The notes under the pieces were generated by a model. That model had not been told where the DNA came from. It saw nothing but the letters and a program-made list of their open reading frames with translations, and ran no database searches. This document shows, one piece after another, positions 2,842 through 64,000 of a DNA stretch of 64,000 nucleotides. This stretch comes from Azoarcus sp. (GTDB taxonomy: Bacteria > Pseudomonadota > Gammaproteobacteria > Burkholderiales > Rhodocyclaceae). A program made the position numbers and the translations under genes. Within the stretch, counting starts at the first letter, position 1. Each line of letters starts with the position of its first letter. The DNA lies in contig DYFV01000021.1 in the NCBI GenBank assembly GCA_020725025.1, positions 1 through 64,000 on the forward strand, given 5' to 3'.

Positions 2842-3495
2842 CTAGCGATTCGTCGGGGCGTCGCCGTCGAAGCGCGGGATGAAGCCTGGGGTGCGTCGTG
2901 CGTAGGCCTCCCACTGCGCGCCGAATGCTGCCGCGGCCTCGCATTCCTCTCGCCGGGCGAGGTGCACGTAGGCGAATGCGAGCACCGGGAACATGGCGAG
3001 CGTGATGAGCGTCGGCCATTGCAGAAGGAAACCCAGCACGATCAGCAGGAAGGCCAGGTACTGGGGATGCCGCACCCGGGCATAGGGCCCGGTGGTCGCG
3101 AGCGCTCCGTTGGTCTGCGCCGCGTAAAGCACCTTCCACGCGGCGGCGAGCAGCCAGAAACCGCCGCCGATGAGGACGACGGAAATCAGGTGGAAGGGGC
3201 CGAAGTGCGGGTTGGTGCGCCAGCCGAACATGACCTCCAGCAGATGTCCCGAGTCGTGGGCGAGAAAGTCCACGCCCGGGAACTGTTGCGCGAGCCAGCC
3301 CGAGAGCAGGTAGATGGTGAGCGGGAAGCCGTACATCTCGGCGAAGAGCGCCACAACGAAGGCGGAATACATGCCCAGCGAACGCCAATCGCGCCCATTG
3401 GCGGGCTTGAAGAAGCTTGCCGCAAAGACGATGAAGACCACCGAGTTGATGGCCACCAGCCCCCACAGGCCGTAGGCGGAGCCGGCGTCGCTCAC
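2842..3495 (-). CDS. Isoprenylcysteine carboxyl methyltransferase-like membrane protein
   Basis: The protein has 217 residues, starts at GTG after GGGGGA, and overlaps the upstream stop as GTGA. It carries about five hydrophobic segments and the C-terminal signature of the ICMT / phospholipid methyltransferase family: [14 protein letters not shown] (about residue 130) with a later RREE. These enzymes transfer a methyl group from S-adenosylmethionine to a lipid or lipidated substrate at the membrane. Members of this family recur in bacterial copper and heavy-metal clusters, where their substrate is not established. Here it sits between a DUF2933 gene and a small Cys peptide upstream of copA. 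Confidence 0.8.
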
Positions 3496-3761
3496 GATTC
3501 GTCCCCCGTGTCGCGACGGTGGCGGTGTCCGTGGCCGCCGCCGTGCATGAAGAAGTGCATCAGCGGGCACGCGAGCAAGATGAGCCACGGCAGCCAGCCG
3601 ATCACGTGGGCGCGGTGCTCGAGGACGAGCAGGAACAGCGCGATTGCGGCAAGGCCGGCGAAGATCCACCAGGTGCGTCCGCGTCCCGCGCGCACTGGCG
3701 CCTGCGACCGTGCATCGGGGCGGCGGGGGGCGGTGTCGTCCGCATGTTCGTGAGTGCTCAC
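3492..3761 (-). CDS. DUF2933-like small membrane protein
   Basis: From the GTG start (GAGGGG six bases upstream) this gives 89 residues: a polar N-terminus with STHEHADD, two closely spaced hydrophobic stretches ([14 protein letters not shown] and [18 protein letters not shown]) and a His-rich tail ([13 protein letters not shown]). That layout matches the DUF2933 family found next to copper and silver resistance genes. An ATG ten codons upstream (base 3791) is possible but lacks a ribosome-binding site. It is the first gene of the leftward copper operon, and its His-rich C-terminus could bind metal; the function itself is unknown. Confidence 0.75.
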
Positions 3762-3826
3762 GGAAGTCCCCTCGCAGTCGGTCGGTTTCATTATCGACCC
3801 GGCTTGCCGACAGCATCCTGACGCGA

Positions 3827-3846
3827 GGATTACGCCGGCGTAATCC
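3827..3846. promoter_or_regulatory. Perfect 20-bp palindrome, putative CopR/CusR-type operator
   Basis: GGATTACGCCGGCGTAATCC is a perfect inverted repeat with the core ATTAC-N6-GTAAT at 3829-3844. It lies between the leftward copper operon (start 3761) and the rightward GH15 gene (start 3998). The same core occurs at 16556-16571 in front of the second copper operon. OmpR-family copper regulators bind palindromes of this kind; which protein binds here is inferred, because no such regulator is encoded in the window. Confidence 0.65.
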
Positions 3847-3997
3847 GCGCGGAGGCGCGCGCGACCCTGGCCGCCATAGCAATTCACGTACGCGCCCGCG
3901 CCGCGCCGATCACCCGGGCACCGTCCTTGCAACTCCGCGGGCACATGGCGCGGCCTTGCCGCCGTGCCGGTTGCCGACTGCCCGGAAAGAGGCGCTT

Positions 3998-5833
3998 ATG
4001 GCGGACGCGCGCACGGCCTACCGGCCGATCGCTGACTACGCGCTCATTGGAAACACGCACTCGGCGGCGCTGATCGGGAGCGACGGCAGCATCGACTGGT
4101 GCTGCCTGCCGCATTTCGACAGCGGCGCGGTGTTCTGCCGCCTGCTCGATGCGGCGCGGGGCGGATATTTCCGGGTGGGGCCGGACGGCGAGTACCAGGC
4201 CACCCGTCGCTACGCCGAAAGCACGGCCGTGCTCGAGACCGACTTCACCACCGCGCGGGGGCGTGCGCGGCTGACCGATTTCATGCACAGCGGGCGGATC
4301 GCGCAAAGCCGCCTGGGCGACGAGGACCCGCACTGCCATCGCCTGCTGCGCCGGATCGAGGGGTTGGACGGCGAGATCGAGCTCGCGCTCGAGTTCCGGC
4401 CGACCTTCGATTTCGCGCGGCGTTCGGCGAGTCTCGCGCCCGCACCGGCGGGCGTGCTCGCCATGAGCGGCGACGAACGGCTTGTGTTGCGCCTGGAGCC
4501 GGCGATGCATCTGGAGCTCGCCGGTGATCTCGCGCACGGACGCTTGCGCGTGCGGGCCGGGGAGCGGATATGGATCGTGCTGTCGCATGCCGACGCGCAG
4601 AGCGGGGAGGCCGCGCTGGAGATCGCCGACCCCGACACGCTGCTCGTCGAGACGTACGGTCACTGGCGCGAGTGGGATGCCCTGTGCACCTACGAGGGGC
4701 CGTTCGAGCCCTGCGTGCGCCTGTCCGCACGGGTGCTGAAGCTGCTCACCTTCGGGCCGACGGGTGGGCTCGTCGCCGCACCCACCTGCTCGCTGCCCGA
4801 GCAGATCGGCGGCGTGCGCAACTGGGACTACCGCTACTCCTGGCTGCGCGACTCGGCGCTGGTGCTGCACGCGCTCATGTCCATCGGCTACCACCAGGCG
4901 GCCCTGGATTTCTTCACCTGGCTGGAAGACCTTTGCGACGGCGAGTGCCGGGACATGCAGATCATGTATCGCCTGGACGGCGGGCGCGACATGCCGGAGG
5001 TGGAACTCGCGCACCTGCAGGGCTACCGCGGCTCGGCGCCCGTGCGCCTGGGAAACGCCGCCGCCGGACAGACCCAGCTCGACGTCTATGGCCACGTACT
5101 CGACGCCGCATCGGTGTGCCTCTCCGCCATGAAACACCCTATCCGGCAAGGGCTCATGCGCGTGCTCGGCTACCTCGCCGATCAGGCGGCGACGCGATGG
5201 AACGAGCCCGACCACGGCCTTTGGGAGGCTCGCTGCAAGCCGCGTCACTACCTGTCGTCCAAGCTGATGTGCTGGGTCGCGCTGGACCGGGCGGTGCGCC
5301 TCGCGGGGCAGGGCAAGCTCAGCGGCGACGTCGGGCGCTGGCGGCGCGAGCGCGACGCGGTGCGCCGGGCGATCCTCGAGCGCGGCTACGACGCCTCGGC
5401 GCGCGCCTTCACCCAGGTGCTGGGCGAGCCCCAACTCGACGCGAGCGCGCTGTTGATGCCGCTCGTGGGCTTCCTGCCGGCCAGCGACGAGCGGGTGCGC
5501 CATACGGTCGAGAGCATCAGGAAGCGGTTGACCGCCGACGGCCTGGTCTACCGCTACCTGGGCGGCGACGGCGTGGCGGGCGGCGAGGCGACCTTCGCGA
5601 TCTGCACCTTCTGGCTCGCCGACAACCTCGCGCTGCAGGGGCGCATCGATGAGGCGGAGGAGCTGGTGCAGCGGGTCCTCGCCTTCGGCAGCGACCTCGG
5701 CCTGCTCTCCGAGGAAATCGACCCGAGGAGCGGCTTGCTGCTCGGCAACTACCCCCAGGGTTTCACCCATCTCGCGCTCATCCATTCGGCGCTCACGATC
5801 AGCCGCGCGCGGCGCGGCAAGGCACGGTCATGA
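3998..5833 (+). CDS. Glycoside hydrolase family 15 protein (glucoamylase/trehalase-like)
   Basis: From the ATG preceded by GGAAAGAGG the product has 611 residues and no signal peptide, so it is probably cytoplasmic. GH15 enzymes hydrolyse alpha-glucosidic bonds (glucoamylase, alpha,alpha-trehalase). Supporting motifs are the N-terminal sandwich start (ADYALIGNTHSAALIG, DGSIDWCCLPHFDS), the (alpha/alpha)6 barrel signature GGVRNWDYRYSWLRDSA, a later CWVALDRAVRLA, and the C-terminal catalytic region LLSEEIDPRSG...GNYPQGFTHL. Its stop overlaps the next gene's ATG, so the two are coupled. Trehalase versus glucodextranase activity cannot be told from sequence; many bacterial homologues of this length act on trehalose. 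Confidence 0.88.
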   Translation: MADARTAYRPIADYALIGNTHSAALIGSDGSIDWCCLPHFDSGAVFCRLLDAARGGYFRVGPDGEYQATRRYAESTAVLETDFTTARGRARLTDFMHSGRIAQSRLGDEDPHCHRLLRRIEGLDGEIELALEFRPTFDFARRSASLAPAPAGVLAMSGDERLVLRLEPAMHLELAGDLAHGRLRVRAGERIWIVLSHADAQSGEAALEIADPDTLLVETYGHWREWDALCTYEGPFEPCVRLSARVLKLLTFGPTGGLVAAPTCSLPEQIGGVRNWDYRYSWLRDSALVLHALMSIGYHQAALDFFTWLEDLCDGECRDMQIMYRLDGGRDMPEVELAHLQGYRGSAPVRLGNAAAGQTQLDVYGHVLDAASVCLSAMKHPIRQGLMRVLGYLADQAATRWNEPDHGLWEARCKPRHYLSSKLMCWVALDRAVRLAGQGKLSGDVGRWRRERDAVRRAILERGYDASARAFTQVLGEPQLDASALLMPLVGFLPASDERVRHTVESIRKRLTADGLVYRYLGGDGVAGGEATFAICTFWLADNLALQGRIDEAEELVQRVLAFGSDLGLLSEEIDPRSGLLLGNYPQGFTHLALIHSALTISRARRGKARS

Positions 5834-52883: not shown

Positions 52884-54185
52884 ATGGACAGAGCGGAGGA
52901 CTACCCGGCGTTGCCGGGGTTGGACGAGGACGCACCCCGCGACGAGTGGGCCGCGGCCTATCAGCGGATCCGTGCCGACACCGAGGCGCTCGCGGCCCCC
53001 CTCGCGATCGAGGACTACGTGATCCAGGCGGCCGACGAGGCGAGCCCGGCCAAGTGGCACCTCGCCCATGTCAGCTGGTACTTCGAGACCTTCGTCCTGC
53101 GCGAGTACCTGCCCGGCTACACCGAGTTCGATCCGGCCTATCGGGTGCTCTTCAACTCCTACTACGAGCAGGTCGGCGCCTACCATCCGCGCCCGGCGCG
53201 GGGTTTCCTGGCCCGCCCCACGGTGGCCGACGTTTACCACTACCGCGCCCACGTGGACGGCCACATGCTCGCGCTGCTCGCCGAGCGGCGCGACCGGCCG
53301 TGGCCCGAGATCCTGGAGCGGATCGCGATCGGGCTGAACCACGAGCAGCAGCACCAGGAGCTGCTCCTCACCGACATCAAGCGCAACTTCGCCGCCAATC
53401 CGCTGCGCCCGGCCTACCGCAGCAACCTGCCGATGCCGCCTTCCGGCAAGCGGGCGCCTGTCGACTGGCAGGAGTTCCCGGGCGGGCTGGTGGAGATCGG
53501 GCACGCCGGGGGCAGCTTCGCCTACGACAACGAGCGGCCGCGCCACCGCGTGTGGCTCGACCCGTTCCGACTGGCCTCGCGTCCGGTCACCAACGGCGAG
53601 TACCTGGCCTTCATGGAATCGGGCGGTTACGCCAGTCCGGCGCTGTGGCTCTCCGACGGATGGGCGCGGGTCCGCCAGGAGGGCTGGTCCGGCCCGCTCT
53701 ACTGGGAGCGGATCGAGGGCATCTGGTGGCAGTTCACCCTCGCGGGCATGCGACCGCTCGACCCCGACGCCCCGGTCGCCCACGTGAGCTACTACGAGGC
53801 CGACGCCTATGCCCGCTGGGCGGGGCGGCGGCTGCCTACCGAGGCGGAATGGGAGGTGGCGGCCGCGGACGAGCCCATCGTCGGAAACCTGCGCGAGGGC
53901 GGCTATCTGCAACCGATCGCGGCGCGGCCCGGCGACGGGCTGCGCCAGCTCTACGGGGATGTCTGGGAGCACACCGCCTCGGCCTATCTGCCGTACCCCG
54001 GCTTCAGTCCCCCGCCGGGCGCGCTCGGCGAGTACAACGGCAAATTCATGTGCGGCCAGATGGTCCTGCGGGGCGGCTCATGCGTCACGCCGCCCGGCCA
54101 TCTGCGCGCCACCTACCGCAACTTCTTCTATCCTCACGAACGCTGGCAGTTCCAGGGCCTGCGCCTCGCGGAGGACGGAGAATGA
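52884..54185 (+). CDS. egtB: Ergothioneine biosynthesis sulfoxide synthase EgtB
   Basis: The 433-residue mononuclear iron enzyme joins hercynine with a thiol (cysteine or gamma-glutamylcysteine) using oxygen. The DinB-like N-terminal domain carries the iron ligands in KWHLAHVSWYFETFVL and NHEQQHQELLL. The C-terminal formylglycine-enzyme-like domain has FRLASRPVTNGEYLAFMESGGY, SYYEADAYARWAGRRLPTEAEWE and CGQMVLRGGSCVTPPGHLRATYRNFF. It is coupled to egtD. No egtA or egtC is nearby, so cysteine is the likelier thiol donor, an inference. Confidence 0.94.
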   Translation: MDRAEDYPALPGLDEDAPRDEWAAAYQRIRADTEALAAPLAIEDYVIQAADEASPAKWHLAHVSWYFETFVLREYLPGYTEFDPAYRVLFNSYYEQVGAYHPRPARGFLARPTVADVYHYRAHVDGHMLALLAERRDRPWPEILERIAIGLNHEQQHQELLLTDIKRNFAANPLRPAYRSNLPMPPSGKRAPVDWQEFPGGLVEIGHAGGSFAYDNERPRHRVWLDPFRLASRPVTNGEYLAFMESGGYASPALWLSDGWARVRQEGWSGPLYWERIEGIWWQFTLAGMRPLDPDAPVAHVSYYEADAYARWAGRRLPTEAEWEVAAADEPIVGNLREGGYLQPIAARPGDGLRQLYGDVWEHTASAYLPYPGFSPPPGALGEYNGKFMCGQMVLRGGSCVTPPGHLRATYRNFFYPHERWQFQGLRLAEDGE

Positions 54186-55153
54186 ACGGGGCGCCGGCGA
54201 ATCTGCACATCCACGACCTGCGTCCGCCCCCGGCGGACTTCCGCGCCGCGGTGATCGAGGGCCTGGGGCAGCGGCCGCGCCGGCTCTCCCCCAAGTTCTT
54301 CTACGACGCCCAGGGCTCGGCGCTCTTCGACGAGATCACCCGTCTGCCGGAGTACTACCCGACCCGCACCGAGATCGGCATCCTGCGCCGCCATGCGGCC
54401 GAGATGGCGGCGCTCGTCGGACGCGACACGCTCCTCATCGAGCTCGGCAGCGGCAGCGACGTGAAGGTCCGGCTGCTGCTCGACGCGCTGCATCCTCGGG
54501 CCTACCTGCCCATCGACATCTCCCACGAGCACCTGGCGCGCTCGGCCGGGGCGATCGCGGCCGACTATCCGGCGCTTGCGGTGCACGCCCTGTGCGCCGA
54601 CTACACGCGGCGCTTCGAGCTGCCCGAAGCGGTGAGCGGTTTCCCGAGGGCCGCCTTCTTTCCCGGCTCGAGCATCGGAAATTTCGAGCCGGCCCAGGCC
54701 AGGCGGCTGCTCGCCGCGGTCGGCGCGCTGCTCGGGCGGGGCGGGCGGATGCTGATCGGAGTCGATCTCAAGAAGGATCCGGCGCTCCTGGACGCAGCCT
54801 ACAACGACAGCCGGGGGGTGACGGCGCGCTTCAACCGCAACCTGCTCCATCGCATGCGGCGCGAGCTCGATGCCGCGGTCGATCCCGCCGGCTTCCACCA
54901 CCACGCCTTCTACAACTCGGTGGAGGGGCGCATCGAGATGCACCTCGTCGCGATGCGGGATCAGGTGATCGGCGTCGACGGCACCCGCTTTCCGTTCGCC
55001 GCCGGCGACGGCATCCACACCGAGAACTCCTACAAGTTCAACGTCGAGGAGTTCGGCGAGCTCGCCCGGGCGGCGGGCTTCGAGACGCTGCGGGTGTGGC
55101 AGGATGAAGCGGAGCTCTTCAGCGTGCACGCCCTCGCCTTCGACGGCGCGTGA
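54182..55153 (+). CDS. egtD: L-histidine N-alpha-methyltransferase EgtD
   Basis: This 323-residue enzyme trimethylates histidine to hercynine with three S-adenosylmethionine. Markers are LSPKFFYDAQGSALFDEIT, EYYPTRTEIGIL, IELGSGSDVKVRLLLDAL, PIDISHEHL, FFPGSSIGNFEP and the substrate-site region IGVDLKKDP...AYNDSRGVTARFNRN. The ATG overlaps the egtB stop. EgtB and EgtD together with a C-S lyase from elsewhere would make ergothioneine. Confidence 0.95.
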   Translation: MNGAPANLHIHDLRPPPADFRAAVIEGLGQRPRRLSPKFFYDAQGSALFDEITRLPEYYPTRTEIGILRRHAAEMAALVGRDTLLIELGSGSDVKVRLLLDALHPRAYLPIDISHEHLARSAGAIAADYPALAVHALCADYTRRFELPEAVSGFPRAAFFPGSSIGNFEPAQARRLLAAVGALLGRGGRMLIGVDLKKDPALLDAAYNDSRGVTARFNRNLLHRMRRELDAAVDPAGFHHHAFYNSVEGRIEMHLVAMRDQVIGVDGTRFPFAAGDGIHTENSYKFNVEEFGELARAAGFETLRVWQDEAELFSVHALAFDGA

Positions 55154-55173: not shown

Positions 55174-56112
55174 CTATTGGCCCTGCGGGGAGAGGCCCTC
55201 CATCAGCGCGGCGAGATTGCTGCGCATGAGCGCCACGTAGGTGGGAGCCTCTCCATCTGCGGACGAGAGGGCATCGGAGAACAGCGTGCCGCCCAGACGT
55301 GCCCCGCCTTCCTTGCGGATGCGCTCCACGAGTCGCGGGTCGCTCACGTTCTCGACGAAGACGACCGGCACCCTCTCCTTGCGCAGCTGACGGATGAGCT
55401 GGGCGATGCCGGCGGCCGAGGGCTGGGACTCGTTGCTCACACCGGCGGCGGCGAGGAAATGCACGCCGTAGGCACGTCCGAAGTAGGCGAAGGCGTCGTG
55501 GGAGGTGACCACCCTGCGCCGCTCGGCCGGTACCTTCGCGAGTGCGGCCCGGATTTCGGCGTCGAGCGCCTGGAGCTCGGCAGTGTAGCGCTCGGCATTG
55601 GCGCGATAGACGGCCGCGCCTTCGGGGTCGGCTGCAGCGAGGGCGGCGCCGATGTTAGCGACGTAGCGCACGACGTTTGCGACGTCTTGCCAGGCGTGGG
55701 GATCGACCGCGCCGTGGTCGTGGCCGTGTCCGTGCTCATGCTCGTGGCCGTGCCCGTGCTCGCCGGAGAGCGGCTCGACGCCCTTGCTCGCCACCACCAG
55801 AGTGCCGCGGAAGCCGGCCGAGCGGGCCAGCCGCTCCATCCAGGCGTCGAAGCCGAGACCGTTCATCACCACGAGCCGGGCCCGGCCCAGCAGTCGCGAA
55901 TCGGACGGGCGCGCCTGGTAAGCGTGGGCGTCCTCGTCGGGGCCGATGAGGGTGGTAACGCGCACCCGGTCTCCCCCTACCTGCCGGACGAGGTCGCCGA
56001 GGATGCTGAAGCTCGCCACCACCTCCACCGGCGCTGCCGCACGCAGAGGCGCGGAGGCGAGCGCGAGGAGCAGCGCGAGGACGGCGAGGGCGAAGTTGCG
56101 ATAGGGGAGCAT
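55174..56112 (-). CDS. znuA: Zinc ABC transporter substrate-binding protein ZnuA
   Basis: The 312-residue periplasmic protein has a signal peptide ending near SAPLRAAAPV. Its central His-rich loop (GEHGHGHEHEHGHGHDHG, about 125-143) is typical of ZnuA. Ligand regions are PDEDAHAYQARPSD, VDPHAWQDVANV, VTSHDAFAYFGRAYG and the late FVENVSDPRLVERI. It captures zinc for ZnuB/ZnuC. Last gene of the leftward zinc operon, 37 bases after znuB, converging with egtD. Confidence 0.94.
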   Translation of the reverse strand: MLPYRNFALAVLALLLALASAPLRAAAPVEVVASFSILGDLVRQVGGDRVRVTTLIGPDEDAHAYQARPSDSRLLGRARLVVMNGLGFDAWMERLARSAGFRGTLVVASKGVEPLSGEHGHGHEHEHGHGHDHGAVDPHAWQDVANVVRYVANIGAALAAADPEGAAVYRANAERYTAELQALDAEIRAALAKVPAERRRVVTSHDAFAYFGRAYGVHFLAAAGVSNESQPSAAGIAQLIRQLRKERVPVVFVENVSDPRLVERIRKEGGARLGGTLFSDALSSADGEAPTYVALMRSNLAALMEGLSPQGQ

Positions 56113-56149
56113 CGATCGGTCTTCCTGTTCGTTGATGTTGTTCGGGAAA

Positions 56150-57016
56150 TCAGGCCTCGAGGTGCGGTCGTGGATCGAGCCGCGGACCGAGCAGACCGCC
56201 GGGCGCGAACGCGAGGGAGAGCACGTAGACGACGCCGATCACCAGGATGATGGCCGGTCCTGCCGGCACGTCGGCGTGGAAGGAGACGAGCAGGCCCGCG
56301 AGCCCGCTCGAGAAGGCGATGGCCGCGGCGAGCGCCAGCATGGCGGACAGCGTGCGCGCCCATAGCCGCGCAGCCGCCGCAGGCAGGATCATGATGCCCA
56401 CCGCCATCAGCGTGCCCAGCGCGTGGAAGCCGCTCACCAGGTTCAGCACCACCAGCGCCAGGAAGCCGTAGTGCGCCACCGGCGACAGGCGGCTCACGCC
56501 GCGCAGGAAGGCCGGATCGAAGCATTCCAGCACCAGCGGGCGGAAGAGCAGCGCCAGCCCCACGAGGGAGACGCTGGCGATGCTCGCGATCAGGAGCAGC
56601 GAGCCGTCGTCGAGCGCCAGCACCGAGCCGAACAGCACGTGCAGCAGGTCGAGGTTCCTGCCGCGCAGGGACACGATCATCACGCCGGCGGCGAGCGAAA
56701 GCAGGTAGAAGGCGGCGAGGCTCGCGTCCTCCCGCAGGATGGAGGCGCGTGCCACGAGGCCCGCGCCAAGCGCCACCACCAGGCCGGCAACGATGCCGCC
56801 CACGGTCATGGCGCCCAGCGACAGACCGAAGGCGAGGTAGCCCAGCGCCGCGCCGGGCAGGATGGCATGCCCCATGGCGTCGCCCATGAGGCTCATGCGA
56901 CGCAGCATCAGGAACACGCCGACCGGGGTCGCGCCGAGCGAAAGCGCCAGCGCGCCGGCGAGTGCGCGGCGCATGAACTCGAACTCCAGGAAGGGCGAGA
57001 CGAGCGCGTCGATCAC
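56150..57016 (-). CDS. znuB: Zinc ABC transporter permease ZnuB
   Basis: From a GTG overlapping the znuC stop (ATGTGA) the product has 288 residues with about eight hydrophobic helices. The ABC-3 family markers are FEFMRRALAGALALSLGATPVGVFLMLRR, SLMGDAMGHAILPGAALGY and a cytoplasmic GVSRLSPVAHY. It forms the membrane channel of the ZnuABC zinc importer. Confidence 0.93.
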   Translation of the reverse strand: MIDALVSPFLEFEFMRRALAGALALSLGATPVGVFLMLRRMSLMGDAMGHAILPGAALGYLAFGLSLGAMTVGGIVAGLVVALGAGLVARASILREDASLAAFYLLSLAAGVMIVSLRGRNLDLLHVLFGSVLALDDGSLLLIASIASVSLVGLALLFRPLVLECFDPAFLRGVSRLSPVAHYGFLALVVLNLVSGFHALGTLMAVGIMILPAAAARLWARTLSAMLALAAAIAFSSGLAGLLVSFHADVPAGPAIILVIGVVYVLSLAFAPGGLLGPRLDPRPHLEA

Positions 57017-57783
57017 ATGGTCACCCGTTCGGTATCGCGGTGGCACACCGGCGCGTGGTCGTCGAGCGCCTCGGAAAGCCCGCGCGCCCGCGCGAGCAGC
57101 GCGTCGGTGAGCACCTCCGGCGTGGGTCCGAAGGCCACCGGCTCGCGGGCGAGCAGCAGGCAGGTGGGGAAGTGGCGCCGCACCTGCTCGAGGTCGTGGA
57201 CCACGGTGAGGATGGTGCGGCCCTCGGCGTGCCAGGCGAGCACCAGGGCGACCAGGTCCTCCACGGTGCGGGTGTCGATGGCGGCGAAGGGCTCGTCGAG
57301 GAGCACCACCGGGGCGTCCTGCAGGATCAGGCGGGCGAAGCGGGCGCGCTGCAGCTGGCCGCCGGAGAGCGAGCTCACCGGCCGCGCCTCGAACCCGGCG
57401 AGGCTCACCGAGGCGAGCGCCGACGCGACGCGTCGCTGGTGTTCGGGGCGCAGCGCGCCGAAAGCTCCGATTTCGCGCCACAGCCCCATCGCCACCATGT
57501 CGAACACGGTCAGGGGAAAGCTGTGGTCGAGCTCGCCGCGCTGAGGCAGGTAGGCCACGGCGCCGCGCGGCAGGCGCGGCATGTGGATGCGTCCGCCCAG
57601 GGGGCGGAGCTCGCCCGCGATGCCCTTGAGCAGCGTCGACTTTCCGGCGCCGTTGGGGCCCACCACCGCCACCAGCGCGCCGGCGGGGATCTCGCCCGAG
57701 AGGTGATGCACGGCCGGGTGGCGCTCGTAGCCGAGGGTGAGATCCTCGAAGCGGATCAGCGGGGGCATGTACTGCTGCATCAT
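57013..57783 (-). CDS. znuC: Zinc ABC transporter ATPase ZnuC
   Basis: The 256-residue ATPase has Walker A GPNGAGKST, YLPQRGELDHSFPLTVFDMVAMGLW in the Q-loop region, signature SLSGGQLQRARFARL, Walker B VVLLDEPFAAID and H-loop TVVHDLEQV. The ATG at 57783 overlaps the stop of a 39-codon frame upstream (ATGA); two later ATGs are alternative starts. It is the only ATPase of the metal-import type in this region and may also serve the second binding protein and permease at 60352-62081. Confidence 0.93.
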   Translation of the reverse strand: MMQQYMPPLIRFEDLTLGYERHPAVHHLSGEIPAGALVAVVGPNGAGKSTLLKGIAGELRPLGGRIHMPRLPRGAVAYLPQRGELDHSFPLTVFDMVAMGLWREIGAFGALRPEHQRRVASALASVSLAGFEARPVSSLSGGQLQRARFARLILQDAPVVLLDEPFAAIDTRTVEDLVALVLAWHAEGRTILTVVHDLEQVRRHFPTCLLLAREPVAFGPTPEVLTDALLARARGLSEALDDHAPVCHRDTERVTM

Positions 57784-57899
57784 CCTAGGGCCCACATCAC
57801 GGTGAGCCACAGCAAGGCCGTCGCGCCGCCGGCGATCGCGAGGCGGACTCCCAGGCCGGCGCCGAGCAGGCTGCGGGCGGGGCGGTGCACAGGGCTCAT
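57780..57899 (-). CDS. Possible 39-residue single-pass membrane peptide
   Basis: The frame MSPVHRPARSLL... has one hydrophobic segment (RLAIAGGATALLWLTVMWAL, about 19-38) after a basic N-terminus, and its TGA overlaps the znuC ATG. The ATG lies 35 bases downstream of the Zur palindrome. Coupling and position support a real gene; the short length and lack of a recognised family leave doubt. Small membrane peptides of this sort can stabilise transporter complexes, which is inference. Confidence 0.45.
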   Translation of the reverse strand: MSPVHRPARSLLGAGLGVRLAIAGGATALLWLTVMWALG

Positions 57900-57960: not shown

Positions 57961-58449
57961 TCAAACAATGCCGTCGGGTTGTTCCCCCGCCGGGGCGTCC
58001 TCGGCTCGCTGCCGGCCGCAATCGGCGCAGGCGCCATGGAACACGAGCTCGGCGCGGTCCAGGCTGAAGCCCGCCGGGAGCGCCACCGCGAAGGCCGGGG
58101 AGAGATCCTCGAGGCAGATCACGTGCCCGCAGCGATCGCAATGGAAATGCGCATGGCGGTGGCTGTCGCCGCGCACCGCCTCGAAGCGCCACGCCCGGTC
58201 GTTGCCCGCGAGGCGCTGCGCTATGCCTTGCTCCACCAGCCAATCGAGCGCCCGGTAGAGCGTGACGCGGTCGGGCGCGAGTCCGCCGCCGGCGAGCCGG
58301 GTGGCGATCTCCTCGTGGCTGAGCGGATGCGGGCTCGACAGCAGGAGCTCGAGCACCGCGACGCGGGCGCGCGTGACGCGTCCGCCGTGGGCGGCGATCA
58401 GGGTGCCGGCCGCGCTGCCTTCCGTTCGTGCGGGCATAATCGTTCGCAT
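57961..58449 (-). CDS. zur: Zinc uptake regulator, Fur family
   Basis: From the first ATG the product has 162 residues; a second ATG at 58437 is possible. The winged-helix part includes GGRVTRARVAVLELLLSS and PDRVTLYRALDWLVEQGIAQ. The C-terminal half has the HAHFHCDRCGHVICLED site and a second CXXC in HGACADCGR, the structural zinc sites of Zur. It lies upstream of znuCBA on the same strand and diverges from a second zinc-linked gene set, with candidate operators on both sides. Confidence 0.92.
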   Translation of the reverse strand: MRTIMPARTEGSAAGTLIAAHGGRVTRARVAVLELLLSSPHPLSHEEIATRLAGGGLAPDRVTLYRALDWLVEQGIAQRLAGNDRAWRFEAVRGDSHRHAHFHCDRCGHVICLEDLSPAFAVALPAGFSLDRAELVFHGACADCGRQRAEDAPAGEQPDGIV

Positions 58450-58532: not shown

Positions 58533-58856
58533 ATGCGTCTTCGCGCCCAGGCGCTTCTTGCCGTGATCCTTTCCCTATGCCTCGTGCTCCTGCAGCACGG
58601 GGCGCTGGTGCATGCGTTCGTGCACCTTCACGGGGACGACGAGCACTCCCATGAGACCGGGTTCGAAGCCTGGCACGCCCTCGACGAGCGCTGCGAGACC
58701 TGCGCGGCTTACGCCGCATGCGGCTCGGGCCCGCCGGGCAGCCACTGGCTGCGCGTGGCGGGCAGTGCGGCCGAGGTTCTCGCCGCCGAGCCCGCTGCGG
58801 TCCATGCGCGCGCGGCCACCGCCTACGCGGCGCGCGCGCCACCCGTTCCCGTCTAG
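58533..58856 (+). CDS. Small His/Cys-rich membrane-anchored protein
   Basis: From the ATG at 58533 the product has 107 residues: an N-terminal hydrophobic segment (LLAVILSLCLVLLQHGALV), then VHAFVHLHGDDEHSHETG and RCETCAAYAACG, and an Ala-rich tail. An upstream ATG at 58497 is possible. The layout resembles DUF2946-type small metal-associated proteins, but the match is uncertain. The first gene of the rightward zinc set; zinc binding in the periplasm is inferred. Confidence 0.55.
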   Translation: MRLRAQALLAVILSLCLVLLQHGALVHAFVHLHGDDEHSHETGFEAWHALDERCETCAAYAACGSGPPGSHWLRVAGSAAEVLAAEPAAVHARAATAYAARAPPVPV

Positions 58857-58943
58857 TCAGCCCTTCTGTTAACGAGCCCGGTGCCGCCGAAGCTGCGGAG
58901 GGCGCCGGCCGTCCTCTTCATGACGAGACAAGGAACAACCGAA

Positions 58944-60341
58944 ATGCCCCGTGTTTTGCCCCGCCTGACCCTGGCCCTGCTGGCCGCCGCAGCCCTGCCC
59001 GCGACGGCCGCCGACAGCGACGAACTCGCCCAGCTGCGCGCCGAGATCGCGGCCCTGCGCCAGAGCTACGACGCCCGCATCGCCGATCTGGAAGCCCGCC
59101 TGCGCCAGGCCGAAGCGCCTGCTGCCGCGGCGGAGCCGGCGCGCGCCGCACCCGCCGCCCAGGCGGCTGCGGCCCCCGCCGTCGGCGGGGGCTTCAACCC
59201 CGACATTTCCCTGATCCTTCAGGGGCAATACCGCCGGATGAAGGACGCCGACGAACGCGAGATCACCGGCTTCGTGGCCGGCGGACACGACCACGACGAG
59301 GAAGGCGGGCCGGAGCGCGGTTTCTCCCTCGACCACACCGAGCTGGTGCTCTCGGCCAACATCGACCCCCATTTCCGCGGCCTCGCCAACCTCGCGCTGG
59401 TGGACGGCGAGGTCGAGGTGGAGGAGGCGTGGTTCCAGACCATCGGCCTGGGCCACGGCCTGGGGGTCAAGGCCGGCCGCTTCCGCTCCGGCATCGGCTA
59501 CCTCAACGAGCAGCATCCCCACCAGTGGGACTTCGCCGACGCGCCGCTGATGTACACCGCCCTTTTCGGCGAGCATGCCAGCTATGCCAACGACGGCATC
59601 CAGCTGAAATGGGTCGCGCCTACGGCGCTCTTCCTGGAACTCGGCGCGGAAATCGGCCGTGGCGTGAACTTCCCCGGGACCGACCGCAACGTGAACGGCG
59701 TCGGGTCGAGTGCGCTGTTCGCCCACGTGGGCGGTGACGTGGGTACTTCCCACAGCTGGCGCGCGGGCGTGTCCTGGCTAGGCACCCGGGCGCGCGACCG
59801 CGAGTCCCACTTCGAGGACACCCTGGCCGGCGAGGAGGTGGTGGGCGCCTTCAGCGGCAAGAGCCGCACCTGGATCGCCGACGCCGTGTGGAAGTGGGCG
59901 CCGGAGGGCAACCCCACGCGGACCAACCTGACGGTCCAGGCCGAGTACTTCCAGCGCCGCGAGCGTGGCTCCCTCGACTGCTTCGAGGAGGACGGCAGCG
60001 GCACGACGGCCTGCGCGGCCGGCGTGTCCAGCACCTACCGCACCCGCCAGTCCGGCTGGTACGCCCAGACCGTGTACCAGTTCATGCCGCGCTGGCGCGC
60101 CGGCGTGCGCTACGACCGGCTCGACAGCGGCAGCATCGACTACGGCGTGAACGACGCCAACATCGAGGTCGCCGACTACCGGCCCAACCGCACCACGGTG
60201 ATGCTCGACTACAGCCCCAGCGAGTTCTCCCGCCTGCGCCTGCAGTTCGCGCGCGACCGGGCGATGGAGGGGCTCACCGACAACCAGGTGTGGCTGCAGT
60301 ACGTGATGAGCCTCGGCGCCCACGGCGCGCACAGCTTCTGA
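58944..60341 (+). CDS. Porin-like outer-membrane protein with N-terminal coiled coil
   Basis: The 465 residues start at the ATG with AAGGA nine bases upstream. After a signal peptide (LTLALLAAAALPATAAD) come a short coiled coil (LAQLRAEIAALRQSYDARI) and an Ala/Pro linker, then a beta-barrel with DISLILQGQYRRMKDAD, HTELVLSANIDPHFRG and a C-terminal WLQYVMSLGAHGAHSF ending in Phe. A surface-loop candidate is GGHDHDEEGGPERG, and the C-terminus also carries His. It is probably a zinc-regulated porin working with the transport genes that follow. Confidence 0.78.
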   Translation: MPRVLPRLTLALLAAAALPATAADSDELAQLRAEIAALRQSYDARIADLEARLRQAEAPAAAAEPARAAPAAQAAAAPAVGGGFNPDISLILQGQYRRMKDADEREITGFVAGGHDHDEEGGPERGFSLDHTELVLSANIDPHFRGLANLALVDGEVEVEEAWFQTIGLGHGLGVKAGRFRSGIGYLNEQHPHQWDFADAPLMYTALFGEHASYANDGIQLKWVAPTALFLELGAEIGRGVNFPGTDRNVNGVGSSALFAHVGGDVGTSHSWRAGVSWLGTRARDRESHFEDTLAGEEVVGAFSGKSRTWIADAVWKWAPEGNPTRTNLTVQAEYFQRRERGSLDCFEEDGSGTTACAAGVSSTYRTRQSGWYAQTVYQFMPRWRAGVRYDRLDSGSIDYGVNDANIEVADYRPNRTTVMLDYSPSEFSRLRLQFARDRAMEGLTDNQVWLQYVMSLGAHGAHSF

Positions 60342-60351
60342 GGGAGACGCC

Positions 60352-61257
60352 ATGGGCACGCGACTGATCGCAACGGCGGCGCTGGCGCTCGCCGCCATCG
60401 CCCAGCCGGCCCTGGCCGCGCTGAACGTGGTGGCCTGCGAGCCGGAATGGGGCGCGCTGGTGCAGGAGCTCGCCGGCGACAAGGCCGAGGTCTATGTCGC
60501 CACCACCGCACTGCAGGACGTGCACCGCATCCAGGCGCGCCCCAGCCTGGTGGCGGCGGCGCGGCGGGCGGACCTGCTGGTGTGCACCGGCGCCGAGCTG
60601 GAGGTGGGCTGGCTGCCCGTGCTGCAGCGCCAGTCGGGCAATGCGGCCATCCAGCCGGGGCGGCCCGGCTACTTCGAGGCGGCGCAGTTCGTCGCCCTGA
60701 TGGAGGCGCCGGCGCGGATCGATCGCGCCGAGGGCGACATCCACGCCGCGGGCAATCCTCACATCCAGACCAACCCGCACAACATCGCCCGCGTGGCCGA
60801 GGCACTGGCAGGCCGTCTGGCGGAGATCGATCCCGCCAACGCGGCCTCGTACCGCGCCCGGCAGGCCGACTTCGCCGCGCGCTGGCTGGCGGCCATCGCC
60901 CGCTGGGAGGCCGCGGCCGCCCCCTTGCGGGGCATGCCGGTGGCCGTACAGCACAACGGCTTCCCGTATCTGGAAGCGTGGCTGGGGCTGCGCCGGGTGG
61001 CGACCCTGGAGCCCAAGCCGGGGGTGGAGCCCTCCAGCGGGCACCTCGCCACGCTGCTCCGGCAGCTCGAGCGCGAACCCGTGCGGGCCGTGCTGCGCGC
61101 GGCCTACAACGATCCGCGCAGCGCCGAGTGGCTCGCCGGGCGCGCCGGCATCCCGGTGGTGGTCCTGCCGTTCACCGTGGGCGGCAGCGACGAGGCGGAC
61201 GACCTCTTCGGGTTGTTCGACGACACCGTGGCGCGGCTGCTGAAGGCCGTGCGATGA
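60352..61257 (+). CDS. Second zinc-type ABC substrate-binding protein (cluster A-I)
   Basis: The 301-residue periplasmic protein has a signal peptide ending near AQPALAALN. The metal-ligand regions of the ZnuA family are present: LQDVHRIQARPS, GNPHIQTNPHNIARVA, AVQHNGFPYLEAWLG and RAAYNDPRSAEWLAG. It lacks the central His-rich loop of the ZnuA at 55174. It overlaps the next permease gene. No ATPase of the matching type is in this arm, so it may share ZnuC. Confidence 0.88.
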   Translation: MGTRLIATAALALAAIAQPALAALNVVACEPEWGALVQELAGDKAEVYVATTALQDVHRIQARPSLVAAARRADLLVCTGAELEVGWLPVLQRQSGNAAIQPGRPGYFEAAQFVALMEAPARIDRAEGDIHAAGNPHIQTNPHNIARVAEALAGRLAEIDPANAASYRARQADFAARWLAAIARWEAAAAPLRGMPVAVQHNGFPYLEAWLGLRRVATLEPKPGVEPSSGHLATLLRQLEREPVRAVLRAAYNDPRSAEWLAGRAGIPVVVLPFTVGGSDEADDLFGLFDDTVARLLKAVR

Positions 61258-62081
61258 ACCTCGATGCCCTCGATCCCGGCATCCTCGGGCCGGCGCTGGT
61301 CGCGGGGCTGCTGGTCGTCGCCACCCACGTGCCCCTTGGAATGCGGGTGCTGGAGCGCGGCATCGTGTTCATCGACCTCGCCATCGCCCAGATCGCCGGC
61401 ATCGGGGTCATCGCCGCCCATGCCCTGGGCTGGGAGCCGCGAGGCTGGGCGGTTCAGGCGGTGGCGGTCGGCGCTGCGCTGACCGGCGCGATGCTGCTCA
61501 CCTGGACCGAACGGCGCTGGGCCGAGGTCCAGGAGGCGCTCATCGGGGTGCTGTTCGTGCTCGCCTCGTGCGCGGGCATCCTGCTGCTGGCCGGCAATCC
61601 GCACGGCGGCGAGCACCTGCGGGAGCTCCTGGCGGGCCAGATCCTGTGGGTGGGGTGGGACCAGCTGGCGGTGACGGCGGTGGTGACCGCGGCCGTGCTC
61701 GCGCTGTGGTTCGTGCCGTCGCGCCCACCCGGCCGTACCGCCTTCTACCTCGTCTTCGCCGTGGCGGTGACGGCCTCGGTGCAACTCGTGGGCGTTTATC
61801 TGGTCTTCGCCACGCTCATCGTGCCGGCGCTCGCTACCCGACGTCTCGGGCGAGGCCGCCGGCTGGCGGTCGGCTATGCCGTCGGCGTGCTCGGCTATGC
61901 GTCGGGGCTGGCGCTGTCGGCCCTCTTCGATTTACCTTCCGGGGCGATGGTCGTGTGGCTGATGGCCGCCGTCGGCGCGGCGGCGCTGGCCATTCGTCCC
62001 GGGCAGGATGCCGCGGCCGGTGCCGCGGCGTCGTCGCATCCGCCCGTGACGACGGGCCTTCGACAGGAGGATGGATCATGA
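61254..62081 (+). CDS. Second zinc-type ABC permease (ABC-3 family)
   Basis: The 275-residue protein has about eight hydrophobic helices. Markers are LVVATHVPLGMRVLERGIVFIDLAIAQIAGIG, a variant of the ABC-3 start, and VQLVGVYLVFATLIVPALAT. The ATG overlaps the stop of the binding protein. Compared with ZnuB at 56150 it has a shorter N-terminus and a polar C-terminal tail (AAGAAASSHPPVTTGLRQ). It works with the binding protein at 60352; the ATPase is missing here. Confidence 0.86.
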   Translation: MNLDALDPGILGPALVAGLLVVATHVPLGMRVLERGIVFIDLAIAQIAGIGVIAAHALGWEPRGWAVQAVAVGAALTGAMLLTWTERRWAEVQEALIGVLFVLASCAGILLLAGNPHGGEHLRELLAGQILWVGWDQLAVTAVVTAAVLALWFVPSRPPGRTAFYLVFAVAVTASVQLVGVYLVFATLIVPALATRRLGRGRRLAVGYAVGVLGYASGLALSALFDLPSGAMVVWLMAAVGAAALAIRPGQDAAAGAAASSHPPVTTGLRQEDGS

Positions 62082-62626
62082 TCAGGATATTCGTCGGCGC
62101 ACTGGCCGCCGGCTTCATGCTGCCGGCGGGCGCTCAGCACGCGCCCCATGCCCACGGCGTGGCGGACCTGCGCGTGGCGATCGATGGCAACCGCCTGCAG
62201 ATCGAGCTGGAGAGCCCGCTCGACAATCTCGTCGGTTTCGAGCACGCCCCGCGGGACGCCAAGCAGCGGGCCGCGCTCGCCCGGGCCGAGGCGCGCCTGC
62301 GGGACCCGGGCAAGCTCTTCGTCGTGCCGGCCACGGCCGGCTGCGAGCTGAAGGAAGCCGCAGTGGAGTCGCCCTGGCCGCAGGCGGGGAAGGCCGAGCA
62401 CGGGCACGACCATGACCACGGGCACGACCACGACGGGGAGGCGACCCACGCCGACATGCACGCGCACTACGCGTGGGAGTGCGCCAAGCCCGCGGCGCTG
62501 AAAGAGATGGGGGTGAATCTCTTCGACGCCTTCCCGCGGCTGCACCAGGTGCGGGTCGAGACGGCGACGCCGGGCGGGCAGGGCGCGTCCGTCCTCGACA
62601 AGGCGCATCGCAAGCTCGAGCTGTGA
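62078..62626 (+). CDS. DUF2796 zinc-binding protein, ZrgA-like
   Basis: The 182-residue periplasmic protein has AGGAGG seven bases before the ATG and a signal peptide ending near LPAGAQHAP. DUF2796 markers are HAHGVADLRVAIDGNRLQIELESPLDNLVGFEHAP and YAWECAKPAALKEMGVNLFDAFPRLHQV. A His-Asp stretch (HGHDHDHGHDHDG) binds zinc in related ZrgA proteins. It is coupled (GTGA) to the ABC ATPase that follows, as in the zrg gene order. Confidence 0.88.
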   Translation: MIRIFVGALAAGFMLPAGAQHAPHAHGVADLRVAIDGNRLQIELESPLDNLVGFEHAPRDAKQRAALARAEARLRDPGKLFVVPATAGCELKEAAVESPWPQAGKAEHGHDHDHGHDHDGEATHADMHAHYAWECAKPAALKEMGVNLFDAFPRLHQVRVETATPGGQGASVLDKAHRKLEL

Positions 62627-63351
62627 GCACGCTCGATACGCCTTCCGCCGCCGTCGAGTTCCGCGACGTCGTCTACCGCTGGCCCGGCGCGGCGCGGCCC
62701 TGTCTCGCCATCGAGACCTTCCGCGTCACACCGGGCGAGCGCGTCTTCCTGCACGGGCCGAGCGGCAGCGGCAAGAGCACGCTGCTGTCGCTGGTGGGCG
62801 GCGTGCTATCGCCCGCGCAAGGGCAGGTGGCGGTGCTCGGTCAAGACCTGGCGCGGCTTCCCGCCGGCGCGCGGGACCGCTTCCGCGCCGACCATGTGGG
62901 TTTCATCTTCCAGCTCTTCAACCTGCTGCCCTATCTCTCGGCCCTGGACAACATCGTTCTGCCCTGCCGCTTCTCGCCGGCGCGGCACGCGCGGGTCGCC
63001 GCGGCCGGCGCCCGTCCCCACGCCGAGGCGCGGCGGCTCGCGGCCCATCTCGACCTCGACGCCGAGCTCCTGGCGCGCCCGGCCGCCGAGCTGTCGGTAG
63101 GCCAGCAGCAACGCGTCGCTGCCGCGCGCGCCCTGATCGGCCGGCCGGGCCTGGTGATCGCCGACGAGCCTACCTCGGCGCTCGACGCCGACCGCCAGCG
63201 CGGCTTTCTCGACCTGCTGCTCGCCGAATGCGCCGAGGCCGGGGCGAGCCTGCTCTTCGTGAGCCACGATGCGCGGCTCGCCGAGCGCTTCGACCGGGTG
63301 GTGGCGCTCGCCGACATCAACCGGGCCGTCACCGGGGAGGTGCCTGCATGA
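62623..63351 (+). CDS. LolD/MacB-type ABC ATPase
   Basis: From GTG the product has 242 residues. It has Walker A GPSGSGKST, signature ELSVGQQQRVAAARAL, Walker B LVIADEPTSALDAD and H-loop FVSHDARL. This is the ATPase branch that partners with FtsX-type permeases (LolCDE, MacB), and such a permease follows with an ATGA overlap. Together with the ZrgA-like protein it forms a zinc-linked ABC unit of mechanotransmission type; transport direction is unknown. Confidence 0.88.
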   Translation: MSTLDTPSAAVEFRDVVYRWPGAARPCLAIETFRVTPGERVFLHGPSGSGKSTLLSLVGGVLSPAQGQVAVLGQDLARLPAGARDRFRADHVGFIFQLFNLLPYLSALDNIVLPCRFSPARHARVAAAGARPHAEARRLAAHLDLDAELLARPAAELSVGQQQRVAAARALIGRPGLVIADEPTSALDADRQRGFLDLLLAECAEAGASLLFVSHDARLAERFDRVVALADINRAVTGEVPA

Positions 63352-64000
63352 CGCCGCTGTGGCACCTCACCCGCAAGAGCATCGCCAACCGGCGCCTCAC
63401 GGTGGCGCTCACCGTGGCCGCGGTGGCACTGGCAGTGGCGATGCTGCTCGGCGTGGAGCGCCTGAGGAGCGACGCGCGCGAGGGCTTCGCGCAGACCATC
63501 TCGGGCACGGATCTCGTTGTGGGCGCGAGAAGCGGCCCGATGCAGCTCCTGCTCTACTCGGTGTTCCACATGGGCAACGCCACCAACAACGTGTCGTGGG
63601 CGAGCATACAGAAGCTCGCCGCGCATCCGCAGGTGGCCTGGCTGGTGCCGATCTCCCTGGGCGACTCCCATCGCGGGTTCCGCGTGGTGGGCACGACCAC
63701 CGGCTATTTCGAGCACTATCGCTACGGGCACGGCGAGCCGCTGCGCTTCGCCGAGGGGCGGCCGTTCGACGGAATCTTCGAGGCGGTGGTAGGTGCCGAG
63801 GTGGCGGCCCGCCTGGGCTACAGCGTCGGCGAGCGCATCGTAGTGAGCCACGGCGCCGGCGAGGTGAGCTTCGCCGAGCACGACGACAAGCCCTTCACCG
63901 TGGTCGGCGTGCTCGCGCGCACCGGCACCCCGGTCGACCGCTCGGTGCTGGTGAGCCTCCAGGCGATCGAGGCCATCCACGTGGACTGGCAGGGCGGGGC
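63348..64000 (+). CDS. FtsX-like ABC permease, 3' end cut by the window
   Basis: The first 217 codons are visible. One N-terminal membrane helix (RLTVALTVAAVALAVAMLLGV) is followed by a large extracytoplasmic domain starting with AREGFAQTISGTDLVVGARSGPMQLLLYSVFHMGN and containing VPISLGDSHRGFRVVGTTTGYFEHY. This is the MacB-like periplasmic domain of FtsX permeases, family DUF of the zrg type. It pairs with the ATPase before it. The remaining membrane helices lie beyond the window. Confidence 0.85.
   Translation, partial: MTPLWHLTRKSIANRRLTVALTVAAVALAVAMLLGVERLRSDAREGFAQTISGTDLVVGARSGPMQLLLYSVFHMGNATNNVSWASIQKLAAHPQVAWLVPISLGDSHRGFRVVGTTTGYFEHYRYGHGEPLRFAEGRPFDGIFEAVVGAEVAARLGYSVGERIVVSHGAGEVSFAEHDDKPFTVVGVLARTGTPVDRSVLVSLQAIEAIHVDWQGG

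Follow-up and report, generated by a model that had tools for sequence, protein, structure and literature searches.

How might a putative zinc permease, paired with a periplasmic binding protein, take up its metal when no ATPase gene accompanies it? The question is raised by a 64,000-nucleotide stretch of DNA from Azoarcus sp. (the window; positions 1 to 64,000, forward strand, of contig DYFV01000021.1 in GenBank assembly GCA_020725025.1), in which a zur-type repressor gene and a canonical znuC-znuB1-znuA1 set are divergent from a second zinc arm, an operon reading rightward in the order His-rich peptide, porin, znuA2, znuB2, zrgA, zrgC, zrgB, and, beyond the window, a DUF3299 gene. A first-pass annotation of this DNA had named the second-arm genes, all of which are present on the + strand of 58533-64000 and beyond, and had remarked that the binding protein and permease (znuA2 and znuB2, 60352-62081) have no metal-import ATPase beside them. 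That observation is confirmed: no zinc-type ATPase gene could be found in the operon, nor between the end of the window and the end of the contig at 71484, ~7.5 kb further on, where such a gene would by the annotation's own account have told against it. We think that the arm is a zinc-acquisition operon organized around porin, ZnuA2, and ZnuB2, and that ZnuA2-ZnuB2 descends from an ATP-binding cassette (ABC) importer, has dispensed with its motor, and takes up zinc through a permease that relies on the binding protein but not on ATP; we give this reading a probability of about 60%. The gene order, the absence of the ATPase, and the absence of the coupling helix to which an ATPase would bind each hold over many genomes and are mutually consistent.

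The neighborhoods of ZnuB2 relatives were sampled from named genomes, relatives of the host, and members of its class. Of 108 loci whose ZnuB2 relative scores at least 90 bits, 102 carry porin, znuA2, and znuB2 on one strand in that order (a stricter count of this triad gives 101 loci with 99 distinct ZnuB2s), so the missing ATPase is not a matter of chance, and the porin does belong to the zinc set, as had been proposed. Outside the triad rule fall L019, where a second znuA2 scored better; L039, which stops before the porin; L068, which has no porin; L023 and L144, seemingly one locus taken twice, with a split znuA2 and no porin seen; and L163, a znuB2 remnant. A few loci were retrieved twice, and ZnuB2 is identical in L025 and L132 and again in L145 and L166. 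A same-strand ABC ATPase gene lies within 3 kb of 4 of the 101 triads (zrgC in the window, a DppD-like gene in L127, and FetA-like genes in L158 and L159, the last three named by eye), compared with a same-strand ATPase gene within 1.5 kb in 40 of 40 canonical ZnuB1 control loci. When neighboring genes were clustered, porin, znuA2, and znuB2 dominated, with weaker downstream clusters in 19 and 18 loci and a cluster of His-rich upstream open reading frames (ORFs) in 12; the possibility of a further conserved gene next to the triad was considered and rejected, and apart from the divergently oriented zrg and znu genes no ATPase cluster appeared.

ZnuB2 relatives occur in 12 of 31 near genomes, in 91 of 370 from the class, and in 37 of 397 sampled across the phylum. 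Fifteen further phylum loci, of which 11 belong to lineages beyond the class, all have znuA2 and znuB2, and 13 have the porin; in a plasmid collection the triad was matched only in Vibrio campbellii, in a 2.06-Mb record labelled a plasmid. The unit also decays in some lineages, as judged from a shortened remnant of znuB2 that adjoins a gene for an ATPase of the iron/sugar-importer type in G127 (L163 6675-8376) and from a znuA2/znuB2 pair broken into several frames in G254 (L162). One triad-bearing genome (G021:C4, L068) carries in addition a second, more distant short-loop permease with a solute-binding protein, with neither porin nor ATPase within the 17.5 kb read.

The permease, too, differs from its canonical counterparts, a point the first-pass annotation overlooked: ZnuB2 has no cytoplasmic coupling helix, the element that binds the ATPase in ABC permeases of its fold. 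In BhuU this helix lies between transmembrane helices 6 and 7 and contacts the ATPase (PMC5136619); in FhuB the coupling helices are residues 209-226 and 542-559, the latter docked on FhuC, and uptake falls when a coupling-helix glycine is changed (PMC8660799). When 88 ZnuB2 (86 distinct) and 41 ZnuB1 (40 distinct) permeases are aligned, ZnuB2 shows a clean gap opposite ~19 ZnuB1 residues (160-178 of the window ZnuB1; consensus RPLLA-TFDEELARVEG). The loop in question is 30 residues long in 41 of 41 ZnuB1s, compared with 7-13 residues in 87 of 88 ZnuB2s and 21 in the remaining one; it measures 8-12 residues in all 15 further phylum loci, and is still short (5-16) in the most distant relatives, of ~40% identity or less. 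A score and length filter kept out of this count L040 (11 residues), L054 (cut by a contig end), L056 (16), L068 (13-14), and the canonical L105 (30, with ATPase).

Structure tells the same tale. A ZnuB2 profile matches the solved ZnuB 9oko with an E-value of 4e-12, ZnuB having a 17-residue insertion at the coupling-helix site; and the AlphaFold model of ZnuB2 (predicted local distance difference test, pLDDT, 87.9; predicted template modeling score 0.82) passes from helix 135-152 through a short loop to helix 161-179 with no helix between them. The model otherwise retains the PsaC/BtuC fold (Foldseek 1.1e-7; VIA Z 23.6 against PsaC, with root-mean-square deviation 3.5 over 246 aligned residues, and 20.1 against BtuC). 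In a maximum-likelihood tree 50 short-loop permeases are split from 41 canonical ones by a 100/100 branch, subject to a long-branch warning. Most likely ZnuB2 descends from ABC importers of the ZnuB/PsaC family and has lost both ATPase and coupling helix. ZnuB2 also has a diagnostic D-L-A-x-A-Q motif, and at the presumed metal site the His of ZnuB1 is replaced by Gln.

Nor is a ZnuC-type ATPase to be found elsewhere in most genomes whose ABC-3 permeases are all of the ZnuB2 type. We examined 80 of 102 known carrier genomes, setting aside 9 with weak or partial matches and 13 of lower completeness or higher contamination, and scored a genome as lacking canonical ZnuB when its best E-value was weaker than 1e-20 (canonical ZnuBs reach 2e-43 or better). 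By this measure 41 of the 80 have a canonical ZnuB as well, and in 39 all ABC-3 permeases are of the ZnuB2 type. With a profile built from 22 ZnuCs of canonical loci, the top hit scores 237-308 bits in each of 10 control genomes and at most 192 bits in 38 of these 39; in the exception, G086, a ZnuC-like ATPase scoring 274 bits is encoded at the edge of a contig. The 38 include the single-contig genomes G099, G101, G138, G262, G304, and G389; one of the 39, G308, is fragmentary, and canonical ZnuB is present in G222 of the same genus. Eleven further genomes, reached through named loci, divide into 8 without ZnuB1 and ZnuC, among them Shewanella pneumatophori, S. salipaludis, and Sulfurisoma sediminicola, and 3 with both.

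Could a distantly encoded ABC ATPase of some other kind, BtuD- or FecE-like for example, drive ZnuB2 through an unusual interface? Every genome encodes dozens of ABC ATPases, and a conserved cytoplasmic stretch of ZnuB2 (residues 84-94, with E94 in 100% of the 88 sequences) might serve as a new contact; but the docking helix is gone, and the best ZnuC look-alikes appear mostly to be spoken for. In 10 of 14 such genomes inspected a FecCD permease gene adjoins the look-alike, which therefore belongs to another importer; by eye the remaining four comprise one LptB-like ATPase, two resembling type I importer ATPases, and one of no clear type. We regard this explanation as unlikely, though it fares best among the alternatives.

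Slightly less probable is that ZnuB2 no longer transports at all, and instead holds zinc in reserve for ZnuA2 or serves as its docking or sensing partner in the membrane, with ZnuA2 passing its zinc to other importers. Loss of the motor would fit loss of transport as well, and ZIP-family proteins are encoded in 35 of 43 genomes without canonical ZnuB; but the complete PsaC/BtuC fold is kept, the membrane domain is strongly conserved, with polar residues D41, Q46, E94, Q129, T173, and D226 invariant or nearly so within its helices, and four triad genomes (G126, G179, S. pneumatophori, and S. salipaludis) show no ZnuABC, ZrgA, or ZIP.

Improbable, in our judgment, is the proposal of the first-pass annotation that ZnuC energizes two permeases, the second arm being spared an ATPase gene by sharing. 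ATPase sharing is known among other ABC systems, znuC lies 3.5 kb away in the same genome, and the 41 carriers with canonical ZnuB would allow it. The host has just one ZnuC-type ATPase to share (557 bits, the next ABC ATPase scoring 74 bits) and two PF01297 proteins, both at this locus. Since the coupling helix is lost, however, sharing is unlikely in the host, and it fails in other carriers, ZnuC-type ATPases being missing from 38 of 39 without canonical ZnuB and from 8 of the 11 further genomes; we have accordingly rejected it as the principal explanation.

The ABC ATPase that does lie in the arm is, as first annotated, of the FtsX/MacB kind and accompanied by a DUF2796 (ZrgA) protein, to judge by matches to PF00005, PF02687, PF12704, and PF10986. 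From znuA2 through the FtsX-type gene there is a 4-base overlap at every gene junction, the pattern expected of one translationally coupled operon, and sequence past 64000, which the annotation had suggested reading for further zrg genes, supplies the remainder of zrgB and the DUF3299 gene. ZrgABCDE of V. cholerae and PA4063-PA4066 of Pseudomonas aeruginosa likewise comprise ZrgA, a separate LolD/MacB-type ATPase, an FtsX/MacB permease, and a DUF3299 protein, but in the window the zrg genes share one operon with the triad. Zrg of V. cholerae is a zinc uptake system (PMC9820375), and PA4063-PA4066 has been interpreted as a MacB-type system that exports pyochelin-cobalt (PMC11481552). The window ZrgA scores 136.7 bits with the NCBIfam ZrgA model, under its cut-off of 185, and the best NCBIfam models for ZrgC (DevA, LolD, and FtsE) are all under cut-off. 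The His-rich peptide, which is short and divergent, matches no Pfam or NCBIfam family and hence gives no Pfam match that would liken it to the DUF2607 protein ZrgD. No MacA adaptor or TolC partner is found among the operon ORFs, the whole genome not having been searched for them.

A zrgC-type ATPase gene lies divergently ~1.5-2.3 kb off, or within the set, at 10 other triad loci of the 101, and in 9 of those 10, Rhodocyclales-type loci, the whole zrg cluster is divergent beside the triad. FtsX-type ATPases, however, act on FtsX-type permeases, and ZrgA is present in only 4 of 43 genomes without canonical ZnuB, so the triad does not need Zrg. Although in the window zrgA, zrgC, and zrgB follow the triad with direct overlap, the least credible of the alternatives is thus that the Zrg ATPase/FtsX pair energizes ZnuB2 or draws zinc across the envelope on its behalf. 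The earlier suggestion that the arm mixes an importer with a mechanotransmission unit stands as a description of gene order at this locus and falls as a requirement, because Zrg is a known system and is so seldom present; overall, the interpretation offered by that annotation is partly supported. We take Zrg in this strain to be a separate zinc-starvation module within the same operon. Another joining of Zrg to a zinc transporter is seen in G038 (L099 1467-4700), where zrgA directly precedes znuC-znuB1-znuA1.

Table 1. Features of the two zinc arms, in contig order
Feature	Position	Strand	Support
znuA1, canonical zinc-binding protein	55174-56112	-	PF01297 over whole domain, 4.0e-90
znuB1, canonical permease, in-genome control	56150-57016	-	PF00950, 1.1e-51
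ZnuB1 coupling-helix segment (residues 160-178), without counterpart in ZnuB2	56483-56539	-	
znuC, sole ZnuC-type ATPase found in genome	57013-57810 (ORF, start uncertain)	-	
zur-type repressor, divergent	57961-58449	-	PF01475, 9e-13
His-rich small secreted or membrane peptide, operon head	58533-58856	+	ORF list
Porin, outer-membrane, triad	ORF 58881-60341, likely start 58944	+	Model and gene order
znuA2, periplasmic metal-binding protein	60352-61257	+	PF01297, 8.7e-43
znuB2, ABC-3-fold permease without coupling helix	61254-62081	+	PF00950, 6.1e-21
Short-loop codons (ZnuB2 residues 153-160), expected coupling-helix position	61710-61733	+	
zrgA (DUF2796), periplasmic zinc-binding protein of joined Zrg unit	62078-62626	+	PF10986, 2.7e-58
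zrgC, LolD/MacB-type ATPase	62623-63351	+	PF00005, 4.4e-28
zrgB, FtsX/MacB_PCD-like permease	63348-64610 (window holds to 64000)	+	PF02687, 8e-16; PF12704, 9.2e-16
DUF3299 gene	64613-65215 (outside window)	+	PF11736, 9.5e-46

The first arm (55174-57810) is closer to the AztABC zinc importer than to Escherichia coli ZnuABC: with NCBIfam models ZnuC scores 215.7 against the AztA cut-off of 220 and ZnuB1 256.1 against the AztB cut-off of 280, both just under. The second arm is remote from these models (ZnuA2, 87.6 against 350 for AztC; ZnuB2, 49.9 against 280 for AztB), and the scores do not place the locus among the AztABCD equivalogs. Between zur and znuC, at 57780-57896, is a small ORF for a single-helix peptide of ~39 residues, MSPVHRPARSLLGAG..., and 52884-55153 holds a gene with FGE-sulfatase and DinB_2 domains that resembles EgtB, followed by a methyltransferase gene that looks EgtD-like by eye, a pair pointing to ergothioneine synthesis. 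Beyond the DUF3299 gene lie a convergent PilZ gene and then, at 65849-71484 of the contig (L003 13850-19485), genes for a type-I-secretion-like ABC exporter, a membrane-fusion-like protein, and a LuxR-type regulator, the very end being taken up by what looks by eye like the beginning of a giant, repetitive adhesin.

We return to the reading of ZnuA2-ZnuB2 as a motorless zinc importer. ZnuA2 is a PF01297 protein in which H58, H131, H137, and H201 are conserved in 100% of 87 homologues, and so qualifies as a cluster A-I binding protein by its family and four conserved His. The porin matches no Pfam family above cut-off, but is modeled as a barrel with an N-terminal helix at residues 25-62 (mean pLDDT 81.2), and Foldseek ranks porins, OmpT, DcaP, and OprO among them, as its closest matches; none of its 465 residues match a plug domain, which sets it apart from TonB-dependent receptors of the ZnuD/omr kind (plug plus 22-strand barrel). 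Its H191, H193, H460, and H463 are invariant in 31 sequences.

Relatives of the unit have been studied in Vibrio. In V. parahaemolyticus VP3218, vpa1307, a relative of ZnuA2, is required for normal growth under the chelator N,N,N',N'-tetrakis(2-pyridylmethyl)ethylenediamine (TPEN), and vpa1307 restores growth under TPEN unless two conserved His are changed (PMC3794297); the codons of the mutagenesis primers in that source, read by eye, correspond to the ZnuA2 motifs QDPHYVQAR and GNPHVQF, the mutated His being those of the motifs. V. parahaemolyticus znuBII-znuAII-omr rises 283- to 1034-fold without zinc (PMC9817125); it is zinc-repressed and, like the window operon, pairs a second ZnuA with a second ZnuB, and no ATPase gene is named in it in the accessible text. 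V. campbellii, listed there as a carrier of the cluster, likewise has the triad, and its ZnuB2 loop is 10 residues long. The outer-membrane gene is named a TonB-dependent receptor in that text, whereas its V. campbellii counterpart is a 380-residue relative of the porin; and the available portions of PMC9817125 and PMC3794297 do not remark on the missing ATPase. The V. campbellii porin (NZ_CP050465.1, a record with just 2 annotated features; L149 3681-6537) bears a His/Asp-rich loop.

The ZnuA2 histidines, the vpa1307 data, the V. campbellii triad, and the porin model lead us to take the unit for a zinc importer whose inner-membrane step proceeds without an ABC ATPase. Transport by ZnuB2, zinc as its substrate, the direction, and the driving force are things we infer, as follows: i) the porin would admit Zn2+, for which its conserved histidines may select; ii) ZnuA2 would bind Zn2+ in the periplasm through its conserved histidines; iii) ZnuA2 would then dock on ZnuB2, where the loop NPHGGEHL (113-123), periplasmic according to charge-inferred topology, could be the acceptor of its zinc; and iv) ZnuB2 would carry the zinc into the cytosol by facilitated diffusion or as a secondary transporter, with the membrane potential and the scarcity of free zinc inside the cell, not ATP, providing the drive. 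Free cytosolic zinc is indeed very low, so that uniport down the electrochemical gradient should in principle be enough.

We wish to stress that several observations weigh on the other side. It is energetically problematic for a tight binding protein to let go of its zinc when no ATP is spent, and a very divergent ATPase might grip ZnuB2 by another route. ZIP proteins in so many genomes mean that the triad is not the sole zinc route there. A single znuAII mutant of V. parahaemolyticus RIMD2210633 grew like the wild type, znuAII having a minor role when zrgA is absent (PMC9817125), and since V. parahaemolyticus also has ZnuC, the published effect of vpa1307 is no proof of ATP independence. A canonical-type Zur box (at most 1 mismatch) lies upstream of the porin in just 4 of 87 loci, with none in shuffled sequences, and none was found for the window operon, where the best candidate has 5 mismatches to a 13-mer that is gamma-proteobacterial. 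Finally, L105 has Gln at the presumed metal site yet retains a full loop and an adjacent ATPase, so the change from His to Gln is not specific to loss of the motor. In that locus (2995-4810), where the neighboring gene is ZnuC, the solute-binding protein is closer to ZnuA2 than to ZnuA1; L105 may be a living relative of an intermediate that preceded motor loss, or may resemble one.

How far does the unit depart from known systems? ZnuA2 (PF01297) and ZnuB2 (PF00950, with a PsaC/BtuC fold in the model) resemble their counterparts in ZnuABC, PsaABC, and AztABC, but the window unit has neither cognate ATPase nor coupling helix, and possesses a dedicated porin gene and the D-L-A-x-A-Q motif. TRAP (tripartite ATP-independent periplasmic) transporters, tripartite tricarboxylate transporters (TTT), and solitary S components of energy-coupling factor (ECF) transporters also capture or import solutes without an ABC ATPase; if ZnuA2-ZnuB2 is a motorless importer they would work similarly, but their folds and origin differ, ZnuB2 being derived from an ABC importer. 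We found no description of a ZnuB-type permease lacking both ATPase and coupling helix in the open-licence literature of PubMed Central, a body that excludes most subscription papers; ZnuB2 proteins are filed in databases as ordinary metal ABC permeases (PF00950), and are therefore easily overlooked. The odds seem to us even that ZnuA2-ZnuB2 founds a transporter class: a zinc importer derived from an ABC importer that shed its ATPase and docking helix, dependent on a binding protein but not on ATP (driven by membrane potential or protons), equipped with its own porin, and spread through the Pseudomonadota.

ABC importers are defined by their ATPase. If our reading is true, the membrane domain of an ABC importer can work alone, and zinc would have a TonB-free entry partner in the outer membrane; the family would provide a natural test of the role of ATP in metal import, and the release of metal by a tight binding protein without ATP would become testable.

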